Source of the DNA: Bordetella sp. BOR01 | GTDB lineage: Bacteria > Pseudomonadota > Gammaproteobacteria > Burkholderiales > Burkholderiaceae_B | Reading direction: 5' to 3' | Assembly (NCBI RefSeq): GCF_019218885.1 | Contig: NZ_JAHUWT010000003.1 | Span: forward strand, 248,001 to 312,000 | Length of the DNA: 64,000 bases | Shown here: piece after piece, positions 4,502-43,676 of the stretch | Layout: every line of letters begins with the position of its first letter | Position numbering within the stretch: the stretch's first letter is position 1 | Program-made: the position numbers and the translations under genes | The notes under the pieces: generated by a model | Told to the model about the DNA's origin: nothing | What the model saw: only the letters and a program-made list of their open reading frames with translations | The model's database searches: none

Positions 4502-4987
4502 CTACCCGCGTATTCTCTTGACCAGCGACGTCGTCGACCGCTCGAACTCGAACGGAATCGCCAGCGCGCGTCCCCCCCAGGTCTTGACCAGGGCGGTCTC
4601 GGGCAGGGTTTCCATGTCGTAGTCGCCGCCCTTGACGATCAGGTCGGGGCGCAGTTCGCCAATGATCTCGACCGGCGTGTCTTCATGAAACCAGGTCACC
4701 GCGCTGACGCAACCCAGCGCCGCCAGCAGCGCGGCGCGGTCTTCCTGGCGGTTGAGGGGCCGATCGTCGCCCTTGCCCAGGCGGCGCACCGAATCGTCGG
4801 TATTGATGGCCACCACCAGCGTGGCGCCCAGTTGCGCGGCCTGGTCCAGGTAAGTGGCATGCCCCCGATGCAGGATGTCGAACACGCCATTGGTGAACAC
4901 CAGCGGCCGGGGCAGCTTGCCCAGGGCGATGGCGGCCGCGCAGGCGTCGCGGGACAGGATCTTGGATTCGAAACGGGCGGCGGACAT
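4502..4987 (-). CDS. rfaE2: D-glycero-beta-D-manno-heptose 1-phosphate adenylyltransferase RfaE2
   Basis: Transfers AMP from ATP to heptose 1-phosphate to make ADP-heptose for the LPS inner core. The protein has 161 residues and is the stand-alone C-terminal half of the bifunctional HldE. The nucleotidyltransferase motif HRGH is at residues 40-43 within TNGVFDILHRGH, and KGGDYD lies about two thirds along. I chose ATG 4987 (MSAARFESKIL). The kinase half (RfaE1) is not adjacent. A phosphoheptose isomerase gene near 53 kb and the Kdo genes near 40 kb belong to the same envelope pathway. Confidence 0.93.
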   Translation of the reverse strand: MSAARFESKILSRDACAAAIALGKLPRPLVFTNGVFDILHRGHATYLDQAAQLGATLVVAINTDDSVRRLGKGDDRPLNRQEDRAALLAALGCVSAVTWFHEDTPVEIIGELRPDLIVKGGDYDMETLPETALVKTWGGRALAIPFEFERSTTSLVKRIRG

Positions 4988-5025: not shown

Positions 5026-5910
5026 TCAGGTGCCGGCCGGAACGATCAGCTCGGACTGCCCACCGGCCGCGGCCAGCTGGTTGATTTCCTTGCGATAGCG
5101 GTTCAGGTCTTTCACCGTATCGAAGCTGCGCCCCATCAGGCTGGACAAGATGTGCAGGATGCGGCTGGCCACTTTCTGTTCCCAGTTGCCGTCGAAGCGG
5201 ATCTGCGTATCCAGCCAGTGTTCCAGCCAACCGGGCTCGGGCAGTCGAGACTGCACCGTGTCGTTCGGGAACAGGCCCTTGTTGACGTGCAGGTTGGTCG
5301 GGTGCATGGCCTGGGCCGTGCGGCTGGCCGATGCCATCAGCACGCCGATCTTCGAGAACGACAGCCGGGCCTGCTCGCTGACGCGCTGGCCGCGATCGTG
5401 CAGGGCCCGGCGCATGTACTGCAAGTAGGCGCCCGCGTGGCGTGCCTCGTCGCGCGAGATGGTCTGGTAGATGGCCCTGATGACCGGCTCGGTATGCCAT
5501 TCGGCGGCGCGACGATACCAGTGGTTCAGGCGCACCTCGCCGCAGAAGTGCAGCATCAGCGTCTCGAGCTCGGGTGCCGGATCGAATTCAAAGCGCACCT
5601 TGTGCAGCTCTTCTTCAGTGGGCACCAGGTCGGGGCGGAAACGGCGCAGGTATTCAATCAGCACCAGCGCATGTTTCTGCTCTTCGAAAAACCACACCGA
5701 CATGAACGCGCAGAAATCGCTGTCGCCGCGATTGTCGCGCAGGAACATCTCGGTGGCCGGCAATGCCGCCCATTCAGTGATGGCGTTCATCTTGATGGTA
5801 TACGCCTGTTCGTCCGACAGCTTGCTGCGGTCGAAGTCGTCCCAGGGTATGTCGCTTGCCATGTTCCAGCGCACGGCTTCCATGGTCTTGAAGAGTTCAG
5901 GATAAAGCAT
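5026..5910 (-). CDS. Ferritin-like di-iron protein, acyl-ACP desaturase-like
   Basis: 294 residues from ATG 5910 (MLYPELFKTM), preceded by an AAGGGC ribosome-binding site. The helical body carries a complete di-iron ligand pattern: E46, E77-x-x-H80 (in FFEEQKHALV), E125 (in CGEVRLNHWY) and E155-x-x-H158 (in RDEARHAG). Four Glu and two His in E/ExxH/E/ExxH order are typical of soluble acyl-ACP desaturases and related oxygen-activating ferritin-like proteins. The actual substrate is unknown; a fatty-acyl desaturase or hydroxylase role is an inference. The most interesting feature is upstream: three 11-bp TGTCAT-type repeats and a sigma70 promoter suggest control by PhoB, whose gene lies about 5 kb away. 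Confidence 0.8.
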   Translation of the reverse strand: MLYPELFKTMEAVRWNMASDIPWDDFDRSKLSDEQAYTIKMNAITEWAALPATEMFLRDNRGDSDFCAFMSVWFFEEQKHALVLIEYLRRFRPDLVPTEEELHKVRFEFDPAPELETLMLHFCGEVRLNHWYRRAAEWHTEPVIRAIYQTISRDEARHAGAYLQYMRRALHDRGQRVSEQARLSFSKIGVLMASASRTAQAMHPTNLHVNKGLFPNDTVQSRLPEPGWLEHWLDTQIRFDGNWEQKVASRILHILSSLMGRSFDTVKDLNRYRKEINQLAAAGGQSELIVPAGT

Positions 5911-5981
5911 GGTGTGCCCTTGTTGGTCCCGCGTGGGGCTATATAACTTCAAAAGAATGCCGTTCGTTCGTCACGGCCCGG

Positions 5982-6003
5982 ACCCTGCGCTATCGCGCAG
6001 GGT
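5982..6003. repeat. Perfect inverted repeat in the leader of the di-iron gene
   Basis: Nine-base arms ACCCTGCGC and GCGCAGGGT around a TATC loop. It lies just downstream of the proposed -10 element of the minus-strand promoter, so it would overlap the transcription start or form a stem at the very 5' end of the mRNA. Read on the plus strand it is followed by TTATTTAT, a poor terminator tail. Function unknown. Confidence 0.6.
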
Positions 6004-6005
6004 TA

Positions 6006-6034
6006 TTTATCGCCGGACCGCACGAAACTGTCAT
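6006..6034 (-). promoter_or_regulatory. Probable sigma70 promoter of the di-iron gene
   Basis: On the minus strand, ATGACA (6034-6029, five of six matches to TTGACA) is followed by 17 bases and GATAAA (6011-6006, four of six matches to TATAAT). The -35 element sits inside the last repeat of the Pho-box-like array. Transcription would start near 6000, leaving a leader of about 90 bases. Confidence 0.5.
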
Positions 6035-6060
6035 GACAATTCGATGACTAATTCATGACA
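6028..6060 (-). promoter_or_regulatory. Pho-box-like array (three 11-bp repeats)
   Basis: Read on the minus strand, three consecutive 11-mers occur without a gap: TGTCATGAATT, AGTCATCGAAT and TGTCATGACAG. The six-base cores are TGTCAT, AGTCAT and TGTCAT at an exact 11-bp period, with mostly AT-rich spacers. This is the architecture of PhoB operators (CTGTCAT repeats, 11 bp). The array is 118-150 bases upstream of the di-iron gene at 5910 and overlaps its predicted -35 region, as activator sites do in Pho promoters. Confidence 0.7.
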
Positions 6061-6075
6061 TTTCGGCCCGACAGG

Positions 6076-7629
6076 TCAGCGGGTAAGTGCCCACAGGGCT
6101 ACCCCCACTGCCAGCGCCAGCACGGCCGCCAAGGCGGCCAGCAGGCGATTGCCCTGTTCCTGCGACTGCCGCAGGCGGGTCATTTCAAGCAGCAATTTCG
6201 GTGCCACATCGGGCCGGCTGAGCTGCTCGTGCATCAGCCGCGGCAGGGTCGGCAGTATCTGCGACCACTGCGCGGCTTCCTTGGACAGCGATTTGCGCAG
6301 GCCATCCAGGCCCATGCGCTGGCGCATCCAGTTTTCCAGGTACGGCTTGGCGGTTTTCCAGAGGTCGAGGTTGGGATCCAGCTGGCGCCCCAGCCCCTCG
6401 ACGTTGAGCAGCGTTTTCTGCAGCAACACCAGTTGCGGCTGGATCTCGACGTTGAAGCGGCGCGAGGTCTGGAACAAGCGCAACAGTACCTGCCCCAGCG
6501 AGATCTCGGCCAGCGGCCGGTCGAAATAGGGTTCGCACACCGCGCGTACCGCGCCTTCCAGTGCCTCTTCGCGCGTGTCGGGCGGTACCCAGCCCGATTC
6601 GATATGCAACTGCGCCACCCGCCGGTAGTCGCGGTGGAAGAACGCCAGGAAATTCTGCGCCAGGTAATTCTTGTCGAACTCGGACAGCGAGCCGACGATG
6701 CCGAAATCGAGCGCGATATAACGCCCCAGGGTCTCGGGCCGGTCGGACACATAGATGTTGCCCGGGTGCATGTCGGCGTGGAAAAAGCCGTCGGAAAACA
6801 CCTGGGTGAAGAAGATGTCGACCCCGCTGCGTGCCAGCGTGGCAATGTCGATGCCCGCGGCGCGCAGGCGGTCGATCTGGCCCACCGGGATACCGTACAT
6901 GCGTTGCATGGTGAACACAGTGGAAGTCGTGTATTCCCAGATGACCTCGGGCACGATCAGCAGGTCGCCGCGTCCGGAGGCCGCATCGAAATTGCGCCGC
7001 AACTGGCTGCAATTCGAGGCTTCGCGCACCAGGTCGAGTTCATCGTGCAGATAATTGTCGAACTCGGCCACCACTTCGCGTGGCTTCAGGCGACGGCCAT
7101 CGGGCCCGGTGCGCTCGACAATGCGCGCCACGATGCGCAACAGCGACAGGTCGCGCTCGATGGCGCGGCGCATGCCGGGCCGCAGCACTTTCACCGCGAC
7201 TTCGCGGCCGTCGTGCAGCACGGCGAAATGCACCTGGGCGATCGAGGCCGAGGCAACCGGGTCCACGTCGAATTGGGCGAATAACTGCGCCGGCGCGGCA
7301 CCCAGCGCGGCCTCGATGCAAGCGGCCGCCTGGACCGACGGAAACGGCGGCACGCGGTCTTGCAGCAGCGCCAGTTCGTCGGCGATGTCGGCCGGGATGA
7401 GGTCGCGCCGGGTGGACAGCACCTGGCCGAACTTGACGAAGATCGGGCCCAGCGATTCCAGCGCGCGCCGCAGCCGCAACCCGCGCGGCGCGCGCGGCCG
7501 CATGCCCAGCCGGATCAGCCAGCGCAGACCGTTGGCCAGCGGATGATTCAGGCTGGACAGCACCAGGTCGTCCAGGCCGAACCGGAACGCCACATACAGG
7601 ATGCGTAGTACGCGCAGGAAGCTGGGCAT
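6076..7629 (-). CDS. ubiB: Ubiquinone biosynthesis regulatory kinase-like protein UbiB
   Basis: Atypical protein-kinase-like ATPase needed for aerobic ubiquinone synthesis at the inner membrane. 517 residues from ATG 7629 ([15 protein letters not shown]). The UbiB-specific KxGQ motif is KFGQ at 66-69, the Ala-rich loop is [11 protein letters not shown], the Lys strand is AVKVLRPG, and the metal/catalytic region reads [11 protein letters not shown] followed by ALDFGIVG. The C-terminus has a hydrophobic anchor ([20 protein letters not shown]). It lies four bases after ubiJ, and an open frame extending further upstream only reads through ubiJ in another frame. Confidence 0.95.
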
Positions 7630-7633
7630 GGAG

Positions 7634-8272
7634 TCAGGCGCCCCGCTGTCGCGCCAGGCGGGCCAGGCGTGCATCCAGCTCGGCCGCCTTGCGCGCCACG
7701 GCATCGCCGTGCCGGCCCAGTTCGGCCAGGTCTTGGTGCCACTGGGCCAACAGCGGCGCCCCGGCCAGCACACCACGCTCTTCGGCCAGGTATTCCGACA
7801 CGTTGCGTCCCAGGCTGGTCGCCGCGGCGCGTACGCCCTGGTTGGCCGCGCGCGCGCCGGCCGCCAGGCGCGCCGCCGGAATATCGCCCACCACGCGGGC
7901 CAGGTCGTCTTCGGGATCCCAGCGCAAGTTGGCGGCCAGGTCGGCCACTACGCGCGCAAGCGCGGCATCGCCGGCAATGTGCGTGGCCTCGGCCACGTCG
8001 GGCTTGTCTTGCCCGGGCAGCAGGCGCAGCGGATTGAATTTGGCCGGATCGACGGTCAGGGTCACGTCGGGCACCACGGCGGCATCGGCCAGGTCGGCAT
8101 ACCCTTCGCTGTTGATGGCCAGCCCGGCCGCGAATCCACCCAGCGCAAAACGCACTGTCTTGCCGGCATGGCGCGCCAGGCGTTCACGTGCCCAGGCTTC
8201 GCGCGCCAGCAAGGTATTAAGCGCGCGAACCGCCAGACGCGGGGGGGTGGGCAATACGGAAAAGGGCAGCAT
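7634..8272 (-). CDS. ubiJ: Ubiquinone biosynthesis accessory factor UbiJ (SCP2-like)
   Basis: 212-residue accessory protein of the soluble ubiquinone-synthesis complex, thought to bind the hydrophobic intermediates. The N-terminal half is an SCP2-type lipid-binding domain: the [14 protein letters not shown] strand region, then DVTLTVDP and [29 protein letters not shown]. The C-terminal half is a charged helix rich in Ala, Glu and Arg. It sits directly upstream of ubiB in the usual ubiE-ubiJ-ubiB order, but here a Tim44-like gene separates it from ubiE. Confidence 0.9.
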
Positions 8273-10366: not shown

Positions 10367-10646
10367 GGTGGAATCCCGGTGTATGGGGCAATGGTAGCCG
10401 ATCGATGGCGGGCAGGTCGGCGCAGAACGCGTTCTTGCGGCCGCCCCTGCAAAGGCATACCGCGCGGCAAACAGCGTGCCCGGACGGCACCGTGAAGCCA
10501 CGGCAGCTTCCCACCCAGCCCACCGACGTCGCAAGAACCACCCCACAACACCGCCAATCCCCCCCCACGGTCACATACCTGAAATATTCCGGCCATACTA
10601 TCGCAATGTTCGCGCTGCTATGCGCTCATCGCCCGCCTCGATCCCT

Positions 10647-11345
10647 ATGTCCAGCACCATTCTTGTTGTCGAAGACGAACCTGCCATCCAGGAACTGATC
10701 GCCGTGAACCTGTCGTTCGCCGGCCATAAAGTCTTGCGCGCCTTCGATGCTGAACAAGCACAGACCCTGATCCGCGCCGAACTACCCGACCTGATCCTGC
10801 TCGACTGGATGCTGCCCGGCACTTCGGGCCTGACCCTGGCGCGCAAACTGCGCGACGACGAGCGCACCCGCGCCGTGCCGGTCATCATGCTGACCGCCAA
10901 GGGCGCCGAGCAAGACAAGGTCGACGGCCTGGAAGCCGGGGCCGACGACTACATCACCAAGCCCTTCTCGCCCAAGGAACTGATGGCGCGAATCAAGGCC
11001 GTGCTGCGGCGGCGCGCGCCCCAGCTCACCGACGACATCATCGATGTCAGCGGGCTGAAGCTCGATCCGGTCACGCACCGCCTGTCAGGCAACGAGCAAT
11101 CCCTGTCGATCGGCCCCACCGAATTCCGCCTGCTGCATTTCTTCATGACCCACCCCGAACGGGTGTTTTCGCGGTCGCAACTGCTGGACCAGGTGTGGGG
11201 CGACCACGTCTTCGTGGAAGAACGCACGGTCGACGTGCATATCCGGCGCCTGCGCAAGGCGCTGGAGCCCTCGGGCCACGACGCGCACGTGGAAACCGTG
11301 CGCGGCAGCGGATATCGGTTTACCGCACAGGTCCCGGCACGGTAA
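10647..11345 (+). CDS. phoB: Phosphate regulon response regulator PhoB
   Basis: DNA-binding response regulator of phosphate starvation. 232 residues from ATG 10647 (MSSTILVVEDEP). The receiver domain has the acidic pocket at E9/D10, phospho-acceptor D53 (LILLDWMLPG), T83 and K105 (YITKPFSP). The OmpR-type winged helix occupies about residues 130-230, with the recognition helix region EERTVDVHIRRLRKAL. This and the close identity of VFSRSQLLDQVWG fit PhoB rather than a generic OmpR member. phoR follows at 12 bases. A PhoB-type binding array is seen near 6.0 kb. An alternative Met nine codons upstream is less likely. Confidence 0.92.
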   Translation: MSSTILVVEDEPAIQELIAVNLSFAGHKVLRAFDAEQAQTLIRAELPDLILLDWMLPGTSGLTLARKLRDDERTRAVPVIMLTAKGAEQDKVDGLEAGADDYITKPFSPKELMARIKAVLRRRAPQLTDDIIDVSGLKLDPVTHRLSGNEQSLSIGPTEFRLLHFFMTHPERVFSRSQLLDQVWGDHVFVEERTVDVHIRRLRKALEPSGHDAHVETVRGSGYRFTAQVPAR

Positions 11346-11357
11346 AACATCGCCACG

Positions 11358-12656
11358 ATGATCTGGCTGCGCACTTTGTTCCTGGTCGCCCTGTGGGCGA
11401 TCGTGTCGCTGTTCCTGCAATGGCTGGCCGGCGACCCGGTCGGCTGGGTGGTGTTCTGCGCGGCATTGCTAGGCATGCTGTTCTGGCGCAGCTGGCGCCT
11501 GCGCGCGGTGTCGTACTGGGCGCACCACCCCGAGACACCGCCGCCGGCCTCGGTGGGCCCATGGGATGACATCCTGGCTCCGCTGTACCGCTACACGCGG
11601 GCCCGGGCGCGCGAACTGGCCGAAACCCGCGGCACCATGCAGGGCATGCTGGCGGCCGCCCAGGCCCTGCCCGATGGCGTGGTGACGCTCAACGCAGACT
11701 TCCAGATCGAGTGGTGCAACCGCATGGCGCGGCACCACCTGAGCCTGAGCCTGCCCGCCGACCGGGGCCACAACCTGCTGAACCTGCTGCGCGCGCCCGA
11801 ATTCGTGGCCTATGCGCACCGCGACGACTGGCCCGAGCCGATTCTGGTGCGCCTGGCGCATGGCGGCCAGGAGCGCGTCATGATGATGCATCTGGCGGCC
11901 TATGCCAGCAATCGCCGGCTGCTGATCTCGCGCGACGTAACGCAGATCGAAAAGCTGGAAACCACACGGCGCGATTTCGTGGCCAATGTCTCGCACGAAC
12001 TGCGTACGCCGCTGACCGTGCTGGCCGGCTTCCTGGAAACGCTGCGCGACATGCCGGCCGAGGCGCTCGAAGACGAGCAGCGCGACCAGTACATGGGCAT
12101 GATGCACGAGCAGGCCCAGCGCATGCAGGCCATCGTCGAAGACCTGCTGACACTGTCCACGCTGGAGTCGTCGCCCGGATCGGACCCGCGCGCGGTCAAC
12201 CTGCCCGGCTTGCTGCAAACTACGCGCCAGCAGATCGAGGCCCTGTCGGCAGGCCGCCACGACATCGCCTGGCACATCGATGAATCGCTGGACGTGCTGG
12301 GTGCCGAGACCGAACTGGCCTCGGCCATGTCTAACCTGCTGACCAACGCGGTGCGCTACACGCCCGACGGCGGCAAGATCACCGTGCGCTGGCATGGCGA
12401 GGCCAACGGCGGGGCGCGCTTCAGCGTGCAGGACACCGGCATCGGCATCGCGGCCCTGCATATCCCGCGGCTGACCGAACGCTTCTACCGGGTCGACCGG
12501 GGCCGGTCGCGGGCGGCCGGCGGCACGGGCCTGGGACTGGCCATCACCAAGCACATCGCCATCCGCCACGACGCCGAATTGCTGATTACCAGCGAAGCCG
12601 GCAAGGGCAGCACCTTCGCCCTGCACTTCCCTGCCGAACGGATCGTGGCCGCCTGA
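11358..12656 (+). CDS. phoR: Phosphate regulon sensor histidine kinase PhoR
   Basis: Membrane sensor kinase partner of PhoB. 432 residues: two N-terminal membrane segments (about 5-43) with almost no periplasmic loop, a PAS domain (about 95-195, with ALPDGVVTLNADFQIEWCN), the HisKA helix with the phospho-acceptor H213 in NVSHELRTPLTVLAGF, and an HATPase domain with the N box NLLTNAVRYTPDGG, DTGIGI and GTGLGLAI. The lack of a periplasmic sensor fits PhoR, which senses through the Pst/PhoU complex. pst and phoU are not in the window, so the sensing partners must be elsewhere. Confidence 0.93.
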   Translation: MIWLRTLFLVALWAIVSLFLQWLAGDPVGWVVFCAALLGMLFWRSWRLRAVSYWAHHPETPPPASVGPWDDILAPLYRYTRARARELAETRGTMQGMLAAAQALPDGVVTLNADFQIEWCNRMARHHLSLSLPADRGHNLLNLLRAPEFVAYAHRDDWPEPILVRLAHGGQERVMMMHLAAYASNRRLLISRDVTQIEKLETTRRDFVANVSHELRTPLTVLAGFLETLRDMPAEALEDEQRDQYMGMMHEQAQRMQAIVEDLLTLSTLESSPGSDPRAVNLPGLLQTTRQQIEALSAGRHDIAWHIDESLDVLGAETELASAMSNLLTNAVRYTPDGGKITVRWHGEANGGARFSVQDTGIGIAALHIPRLTERFYRVDRGRSRAAGGTGLGLAITKHIAIRHDAELLITSEAGKGSTFALHFPAERIVAA

Positions 12657-43337: not shown

Positions 43338-43676
43338 ATGAACCTGAGCATCTGCGGTCGTCATCTCGACGTCACCCCGGCCATCCGGGAATATGTCATG
43401 AATAAACTGGCGCGAGTGCTGCGGCATTTCGATCACGTGATCGATACCCAGGTCATGCTCTCAGTAGAGCCCCTGCGGCATAAAGCCGAAATCACCATGA
43501 GACTGCGCGGCAAAGACATCCATTGCGAAGCCGTGGATGAAAACCTTTACGCAGCCATTGACCTGCTGGCCGACAAAATCGACCGCCAGGTCCTCAAGCA
43601 CAAAGACAAGGTGCAAAGCCATACGGCAGAGTCGGTGAAGCGACAAGCTGCTGCCATCGCGCAGCAAAATCCGTAG
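43338..43676 (+). CDS. hpf: Ribosome hibernation promoting factor HPF (short form)
   Basis: 112 residues from ATG 43338, with AAGGAG just upstream. MNLSICGRHLDVTPAIREYVMNKLARVLRHF is the family's first strand and helix, and HCEAVDENLYAAIDLLADKIDRQVLKHKDK the second. The length matches short HPF/YhbH, which binds the 30S A/P sites and drives 100S dimers in stationary phase. In sigma-54 bearing relatives it sits right after rpoN; here that gene is missing. Confidence 0.93.
   Translation: MNLSICGRHLDVTPAIREYVMNKLARVLRHFDHVIDTQVMLSVEPLRHKAEITMRLRGKDIHCEAVDENLYAAIDLLADKIDRQVLKHKDKVQSHTAESVKRQAAAIAQQNP

Follow-up and report, generated by a model that had tools for sequence, protein, structure and literature searches.

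Why should a gene for a desaturase-like di-iron protein carry a promoter of the kind that is activated by PhoB under phosphate starvation? This question is raised by a locus in Bordetella sp. BOR01, where such a gene (here called the di-iron gene) lies on the minus strand of a 64,000-nucleotide stretch of contig NZ_JAHUWT010000003.1 (positions 248,001 to 312,000), the whole of which was analyzed and is referred to as the window. An earlier reading, made from the sequence only, had noticed a triple Pho-box-like repeat in front of the gene, and proposed a phosphate-controlled acyl-chain oxidase or desaturase involved in membrane-lipid remodeling. The observation itself was confirmed by our analysis, and the overall interpretation was partly supported. 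Taken as a whole, the locus is best explained by an O2-dependent oxidase or desaturase of acyl chains whose gene is activated by PhoB and which would act in membrane remodeling, an explanation that we consider moderately likely.

The repeats are 11-bp units that follow each other without a gap on the minus strand from 6060 to 6028, just as had been reported, and a scan of the window with a PhoB matrix ranked this array best. A fourth, degenerate unit lies in register on the promoter-proximal side. In an alignment of 15 promoters (this one and 14 of the 30 other promoters of the clade described below, i.e., 15 of 31), a TC dinucleotide is invariant in all four units, at a spacing of 11 columns, with one 10-bp step in a single promoter (locus L004). 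The TTC of unit 4 (TTTCGT) is invariant in 15 of 15; the call of this unit rests on its position and conservation, because its matrix score is only −0.6 bits. The −10 region (GATAAA here), of which the G, A, A, and A are invariant in the same alignment, begins at an offset of 16 bases when counted from where unit 4 starts, and of 27 when counted from unit 3. In the promoters of pstS (TAAGAT) and ppk (TAAAAC) of the same genome, the −10 element has the same offset of 16, counted from the first base of the last unit, each hexamer giving 4 of 6 −10 matches. At this offset, the ugpB and plcP-like promoters match at 3 of 6 positions (ugpB better at 14), and the phoU promoter has no −10 hexamer. A Pho promoter is expected to carry two or more TGTCA-like units of 11 bp in tandem, of which three good ones and a degenerate one were found here, and its last unit should stand in for the −35 element at a set spacing to the −10, which holds for this promoter provided that the degenerate unit 4 is counted. 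Because four TC units stand in register and the offset of 16 is shared with pstS and ppk, the most fitting reading of the array is a pair of sites for PhoB dimers, in which the promoter-proximal unit is degenerate. The overlap with a −35 element and a 17-bp spacer, which the sequence-only reading had favored, is a possible way to read the same bases, but the PhoB geometry fits better. That reading had missed the fourth unit, as well as the hldC-like gene downstream and the contrast between a clade-limited site and a more widely distributed protein.

Just past the −10, in the presumed 5′ untranslated region (UTR), a strong hairpin can be folded at 5982 to 6003 (minus strand). With a z of −1.95 here and of −0.71, 1.09, −1.59, and −1.55 in four relatives, whose folded UTRs contained other hairpins or none at this position, it is unconvincing.

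The whole genome (6,178,062 bases) was searched for the triple-core pattern GTCAYN6GTCAYN6GTCAY with at most one mismatch, the reversed pattern serving as a control. This yielded 5 matches at 4 places (control: 2 matches), upstream of the di-iron gene, a gene for a plcP-like phosphoesterase, phoU, and ugpB. The array stands out from chance because of this company (plcP-like, phoU, ugpB), and less because of the number of matches. The double core without mismatches gave 6 matches (control: 2), before phoU, the di-iron gene, ppk, and pstS, and at two places (L174 and L176) with no recognized Pho gene behind them. The motif thus precedes undisputed Pho genes (pstS, phoU, ugpB, and ppk), and a weaker pair precedes phoB. 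Regulators of the OmpR/PhoB type that are related to PhoB bind tandem direct repeats as well, and one of these might occupy the array, but the occurrence of the same repeats before exactly these genes makes another regulator very improbable.

Both phoB and phoR are present in the window, as the sequence-only reading had stated. Upstream of phoB lies a Pho-box-like pair that was kept out of the matrix. It is the best 2-unit match in the window outside the described array (12.6 bits), with a small lead over the next match (11.9 bits at 43359), and suggests that phoB may be autoregulated.

Conservation was assessed by scoring the 260 bp upstream of 132 homologs with the matrix, which was built from 14 units of five promoters of the own genome (pstS, ppk, phoU, ugpB, and plcP-like). 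Significance was derived from 400 dinucleotide shuffles per upstream region; shuffles were used instead of random windows because the random-window background contains the arrays. The 132 loci consisted of 30 of the Bordetella/Achromobacter group, 38 other ubiB-linked loci (from Alcaligenaceae, or from records of metagenome-assembled genomes naming no family or another one), and 64 others. The group of 30 comprises 20 loci (L002–L021), 8 of the same genus, and 2 from a single genus within the same family, placed by likeness, and L002–L021 may overlap with other records of the 30. Within the group, the 2- and 3-unit scores were both significant (p < 0.01) in 30 of 30 loci, or 14 of 14 without near-duplicates; with random windows, p was below 0.01 in 28 of 30 and below 0.05 in all 30. 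Elsewhere, either score reached p < 0.01 in 8 of the 38 other ubiB-linked loci (7/29 without near-duplicates) and in 11 of the 64 loci without a ubiB link (10/61), which is above the 1% to 2% expected, yet the exception. Conservation of the repeats in relatives, to which the sequence-only reading had tied its proposal, therefore holds throughout the Bordetella/Achromobacter group and breaks down beyond it. Judged from these upstream regions, the regulatory site is constant in a single clade and sporadic elsewhere, while the protein is not clade-limited.

Together, the promoter geometry, the company of Pho genes, the conservation in the clade, and the presence of phoBR, all of which can be read directly from the DNA, strongly support control by PhoB, and we regard such control as very likely.

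The protein carries the full di-iron ligand set that had been noted before, which can likewise be read from its sequence: an alignment of 39 sequences shows no variation at E77, H80, E125, E155, and H158, nor at E46 and E54, either of which may be the first ligand. With its motifs E77xxH80 and E155xxH158, it shows the six ligands (E, ExxH, E, ExxH) of soluble acyl-acyl carrier protein (acyl-ACP) desaturases. The profile FA_desaturase_2 (PF03405) scored above its curated cut-off over a short stretch, and every one of the 39 aligned sequences matched it at E ≤ 0.001. When an AlphaFold2 model was compared with known folds, acyl-ACP desaturases ranked first, at 12% to 18% identity to their structures, so that a desaturase-like fold is predicted. 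An ordinary ferritin or rubrerythrin was rejected, as the rubrerythrin and EncFtn-like scores stayed below the cut-offs. The nearest named relatives are from Bordetella and Achromobacter, and full-length members in 300 Burkholderiales genomes have at least 66% identity to the protein, while 165 of the 300 gave no match to it. On sequence grounds, it is a member of an uncharacterized, strongly conserved Burkholderiales family. Five genomes that fall in the class but not in the order (L083–L087) also contain homologs (67% to 72%), with neither hldC nor ubiB found in their 1.5-kb flanks. Locus L204 (G430:C12) holds a broken gene remnant at about 5751 to 5947, of which only residues 1 to 66 are recognizable, divergent to a gene for an OlsB-family (PF13444) acyltransferase.

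The di-iron gene is present as a single copy in the 6.18-Mb genome. Its start was placed at the ATG at 5910 because M1 is invariant in the alignment of 39 sequences, and the TTG start of the longest open reading frame (ORF) was rejected. The array sits inside a 165-bp gap between the ubiB ORF and the di-iron gene. On the other side, the hldC-like gene follows on the same strand; its profile score of 180.2 bits is slightly below the cut-off of 181.5, and no second match was found in the genome. The two genes are probably co-transcribed. Comparison with PHROGs and an Rfam scan of the window gave nothing useful.

Table. Coordinates of the promoter elements and genes within the window.
Feature	Position	Strand	Basis and remarks
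Di-iron gene	5026..5910	−	294-aa soluble di-iron protein, FA_desaturase_2-like (PF03405); translation, Pfam
Pho unit 1, TGTCATGAATT	6050..6060	−	11.3 bits (matrix)
Pho unit 2, AGTCATCGAAT	6039..6049	−	9.2 bits (matrix)
Pho unit 3, TGTCATGACAG	6028..6038	−	11.5 bits (matrix)
Pho unit 4, degenerate, promoter-proximal, TTTCGTGCGGT	6017..6027	−	in register; −0.6 bits (matrix)
−10 element GATAAA	6006..6011	−	offset from unit 4 and conservation
ubiB	6076..7776	−	upstream neighbor, same strand; ORF limits, start unrefined
hldC-like (rfaE domain II, heptose-1-phosphate adenylyltransferase)	4502..4987	−	profile match; start codon is our reading
Pho-box-like pair GGTCACATACC TGAAATATTCC	10569..10590	+	precedes phoB; matrix scan
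phoB	10647..11345 (start approximate)	+	ORF 10476–11345, PhoB model from residue 58; TIGR02154 373 bits (cut-off 296)
phoR	11358..12656	+	TIGR02966 413 bits (cut-off 334)

The neighborhoods of the homologs bear on the function of the enzyme. The gene follows ubiE-ubiJ-ubiB, and 69 of the 132 loci have ubiB upstream in the same orientation (at most 600 bp off in 68 of them, at a greater distance in 1), as might be expected of a ubiquinone-related di-iron hydroxylase. However, the fetched stretch contained no ubiB at the other 63 loci, 165 of the 300 Burkholderiales genomes gave no match to the protein, and no ubiquinone hydroxylase model was among the NCBIfam matches up to E 0.1. Because of the loci without ubiB and the missing model match, a ubiquinone role was dropped as the principal explanation, and we give it hardly any chance.

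More can be learned from the loci that lack ubiB, of which 79 were examined (not counting three known duplicates and L204, the broken copy; 30 had only 1.5-kb flanks). At least one gene for a flavin adenine dinucleotide (FAD) protein, DUF1365, CMAS, MFS, SDR, SnoaL, chalcone-isomerase-like, MerR-B12, or photolyase-like protein was found at 43 of these, and 21 had one of FAD, DUF1365, and CMAS. DUF1365, CMAS, MFS_2, DUF3833, SDR, SnoaL, and MerR with B12-binding domains were confirmed by Pfam for one representative each; the single FAD fragment tested had no Pfam match, and the names FAD, photolyase, and chalcone-isomerase-like were given by eye. The di-iron gene closes a same-strand run of such genes at one locus (L190), and lies inside such a run, with hldC next to it, at another (L189). 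The CMAS, DUF1365, and FAD neighbors resemble the set of genes for furan fatty acids, and this likeness suggests an acyl chain as the substrate. We take this gene set to be tied to responses to light and singlet oxygen, for which the MerR and photolyase neighbors are the sole support here.

The same neighbors leave room for an oxidative-stress enzyme that removes peroxidized acyl chains, peroxide, or oxygen, and that belongs to the Pho regulon since starved cells suffer oxidative stress. MerR-B12 (LitR/CarH-like) regulators occur at 19 of the 79 loci and photolyase-like genes at 9, and the protein has weak matches to the rubrerythrin and encapsulated-ferritin families. These matches remain under the cut-offs, however, the predicted fold is closer to desaturases, and acyl-modifying enzymes are among the neighbors, so that we consider this role unlikely. 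Rather, the family may act on acyl chains, and the Bordetella/Achromobacter clade may use it without the furan pathway and under PhoB. The acyl-chain oxidase or desaturase of the sequence-only reading thus gains indirect support from the predicted fold, the marginal Pfam match, and the neighborhoods in relatives, and the function stays putative; we judge oxidation or desaturation of acyl chains to be somewhat favored.

Use of the enzyme in lipid remodeling is suggested by the other genes behind triple arrays. In nine congeneric genomes, a pattern relaxed after inspection of congeneric sequences (R for A, in two cores) gave 20 matches at 16 places, against 2 matches for the control. Eight of these places precede the di-iron gene (in 8 of the 9 genomes), 4 a plcP-like gene, and 2 a GT4 glycosyltransferase (Agt-like) gene, so that 14 of the 16 fall before one of these three. 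The remaining two arrays (L209 and L222, both at about base 1500) precede genes to which none of these names was given. Gene names in these genomes were given by eye from translations except where confirmed by Pfam, as was one of the two GT4 genes; the Agt-like label rests on family and context. The calcineurin-type phosphoesterase, a type backed by its Pfam match, is presumably PlcP-like. Apart from this company of plcP-like and Agt-like genes, the link to membrane-lipid remodeling made by the sequence-only reading is indirect, and we give a use in phosphate-starvation lipid remodeling an even chance. OlsB-family genes were of no use as a discriminator because they are too common (242 of 300 genomes). 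A plcP-like and an OlsB-family gene lie at most 8 kb apart in at least 13 genomes, which hints at units of PlcP and ornithine-lipid genes in Burkholderiales.

Several observations weigh against the explanation favored here. Regarding the promoter, the core pattern had itself turned up four of the five promoters that went into the matrix, which makes the scores partly non-independent; one congeneric genome (G191) had no triple core even with the relaxed pattern; the array lies near −233 at two loci (L019 and L020), instead of near −150; and significant scores outside the clade are the exception, as given above. Regarding the enzyme, the FA_desaturase_2 match, at 27.8 bits for a cut-off of 22.7, is marginal and covers 38 residues (134–171), the model has a predicted local distance difference test score of 77 with poor stretches within 199 to 220, helical bundles easily give a high Z, and the alignment with DesA2 (HMMER) reached an E of only 0.01. 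The own genome has no DUF1365 match, and the furan-fatty-acid context therefore fails in this species. Regarding remodeling, a strong plcP-like match (E of 1e-70 or better) was found in 76 of 129 genomes with the di-iron gene and 72 of 171 without it (300 Burkholderiales genomes), a weak association (odds ratio 2.0, p 0.005, uncorrected for kinship) that leaves 53 holders without such a match. PlcP-like and Agt-like are provisional names, and a search of NCBIfam up to E 1e-15 returned nothing for the PlcP-like protein.

Finally, the hldC-like gene, 38 bp away and the only match in the genome, points to a different use of the enzyme. The di-iron protein and HldC could form a phosphate-controlled lipopolysaccharide unit altering the acyl chains of lipid A and the supply of core heptose, which would share the acyl substrate with the explanation above. 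Of the 132 loci, 87 have hldC on the same strand no more than 600 bp downstream, and 11 have it farther away; it occurs also where ubiB is absent. It was absent from the fetched stretch at 34 loci, however, and at 13 of the 21 loci with FAD, DUF1365, or CMAS neighbors, and hldC is presumably needed at high phosphate too. We therefore think such a unit improbable.

Under the PhoB-dependent explanation, phosphate starvation would lead phosphorylated PhoB to bind the four units (6060–6017) as two tandem dimers, substitute for the −35 element, and recruit RNA polymerase to the −10. The transcript would cover the di-iron gene and probably hldC. The encoded protein would be a soluble O2-dependent di-iron enzyme with an acyl-ACP desaturase fold, most likely desaturating or oxygenating an acyl chain that may be carrier-bound or part of a lipid. 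It would act together with other enzymes controlled by PhoB, PlcP-like ones and, in two relatives, also Agt-like ones; head groups and acyl chains would then both be altered when phospholipid is withdrawn. More tentatively, at slightly less than an even chance, we propose that soluble di-iron enzymes that oxidize acyl chains form a family in Burkholderiales, that this family is linked in many relatives to a fatty-acid modification cluster of the light/singlet-oxygen type, and that it was put under PhoB in the Bordetella/Achromobacter group, where starvation adds an O2-dependent acyl step to the head-group swap. Known lipid renovation under starvation swaps head groups (PlcP-Agt and similar systems), and a PhoB-driven di-iron enzyme would add the acyl chains. 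If true, the phosphate response would be linked to oxygen and iron, and the uncharacterized family would gain a function. We know of no other Pho regulon with such a step. The elements are each of known kinds; their combination was not found in the literature searched, and, judged by titles and the openings of abstracts, none of the matches listed reports a desaturase-like or ferritin-like gene under PhoB control in Burkholderiales.

Compared with known systems, the protein is closest in predicted fold to the soluble acyl-ACP desaturases, i.e., plant stearoyl-ACP desaturase (1afr, 1oq9, and 2uw1) and DesA2 of Mycobacterium tuberculosis (1za0), and its EExxH, E, and DExRH motifs align with those of DesA2, at the weak E of 0.01. 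It differs in its low identity to these structures (12% to 18%), in a best Pfam stretch limited to 134–171, and in a Leu at E125+3, where the castor desaturase carries Thr199. With the AurF di-iron N-oxygenases it shares a di-iron helical bundle and weak Pfam similarity; membership in this family was rejected, at 24.0 bits for a cut-off of 29.6. Furan fatty acids are made in Rhodobacter by UfaM, UfaD, and UfaO, the last a DUF1365 protein (PMC7380195). Relatives of the methyltransferase and the DUF1365 protein, with a probable FAD protein, adjoin the gene in some relatives, but the protein itself is none of the three, and Pfam found no CMAS, FAD, or DUF1365 domain in it. The PlcP-Agt system makes glycolipids in phosphate-stressed Pseudomonas aeruginosa, with predicted Pho boxes before its genes (PMC8528852), and PlcP is central to lipid renovation in marine bacteria, Phaeobacter and SAR11 (PMC4796936); the word desaturase is absent from both main texts. 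Pho-box promoters are common to both systems, as triple arrays precede plcP-like genes in four genomes of the genus studied here and a GT4 gene in two. Whereas those papers cover head-group exchange, the Bordetella locus places an additional gene, for an acyl-oxidase-like di-iron protein, behind the same kind of promoter.
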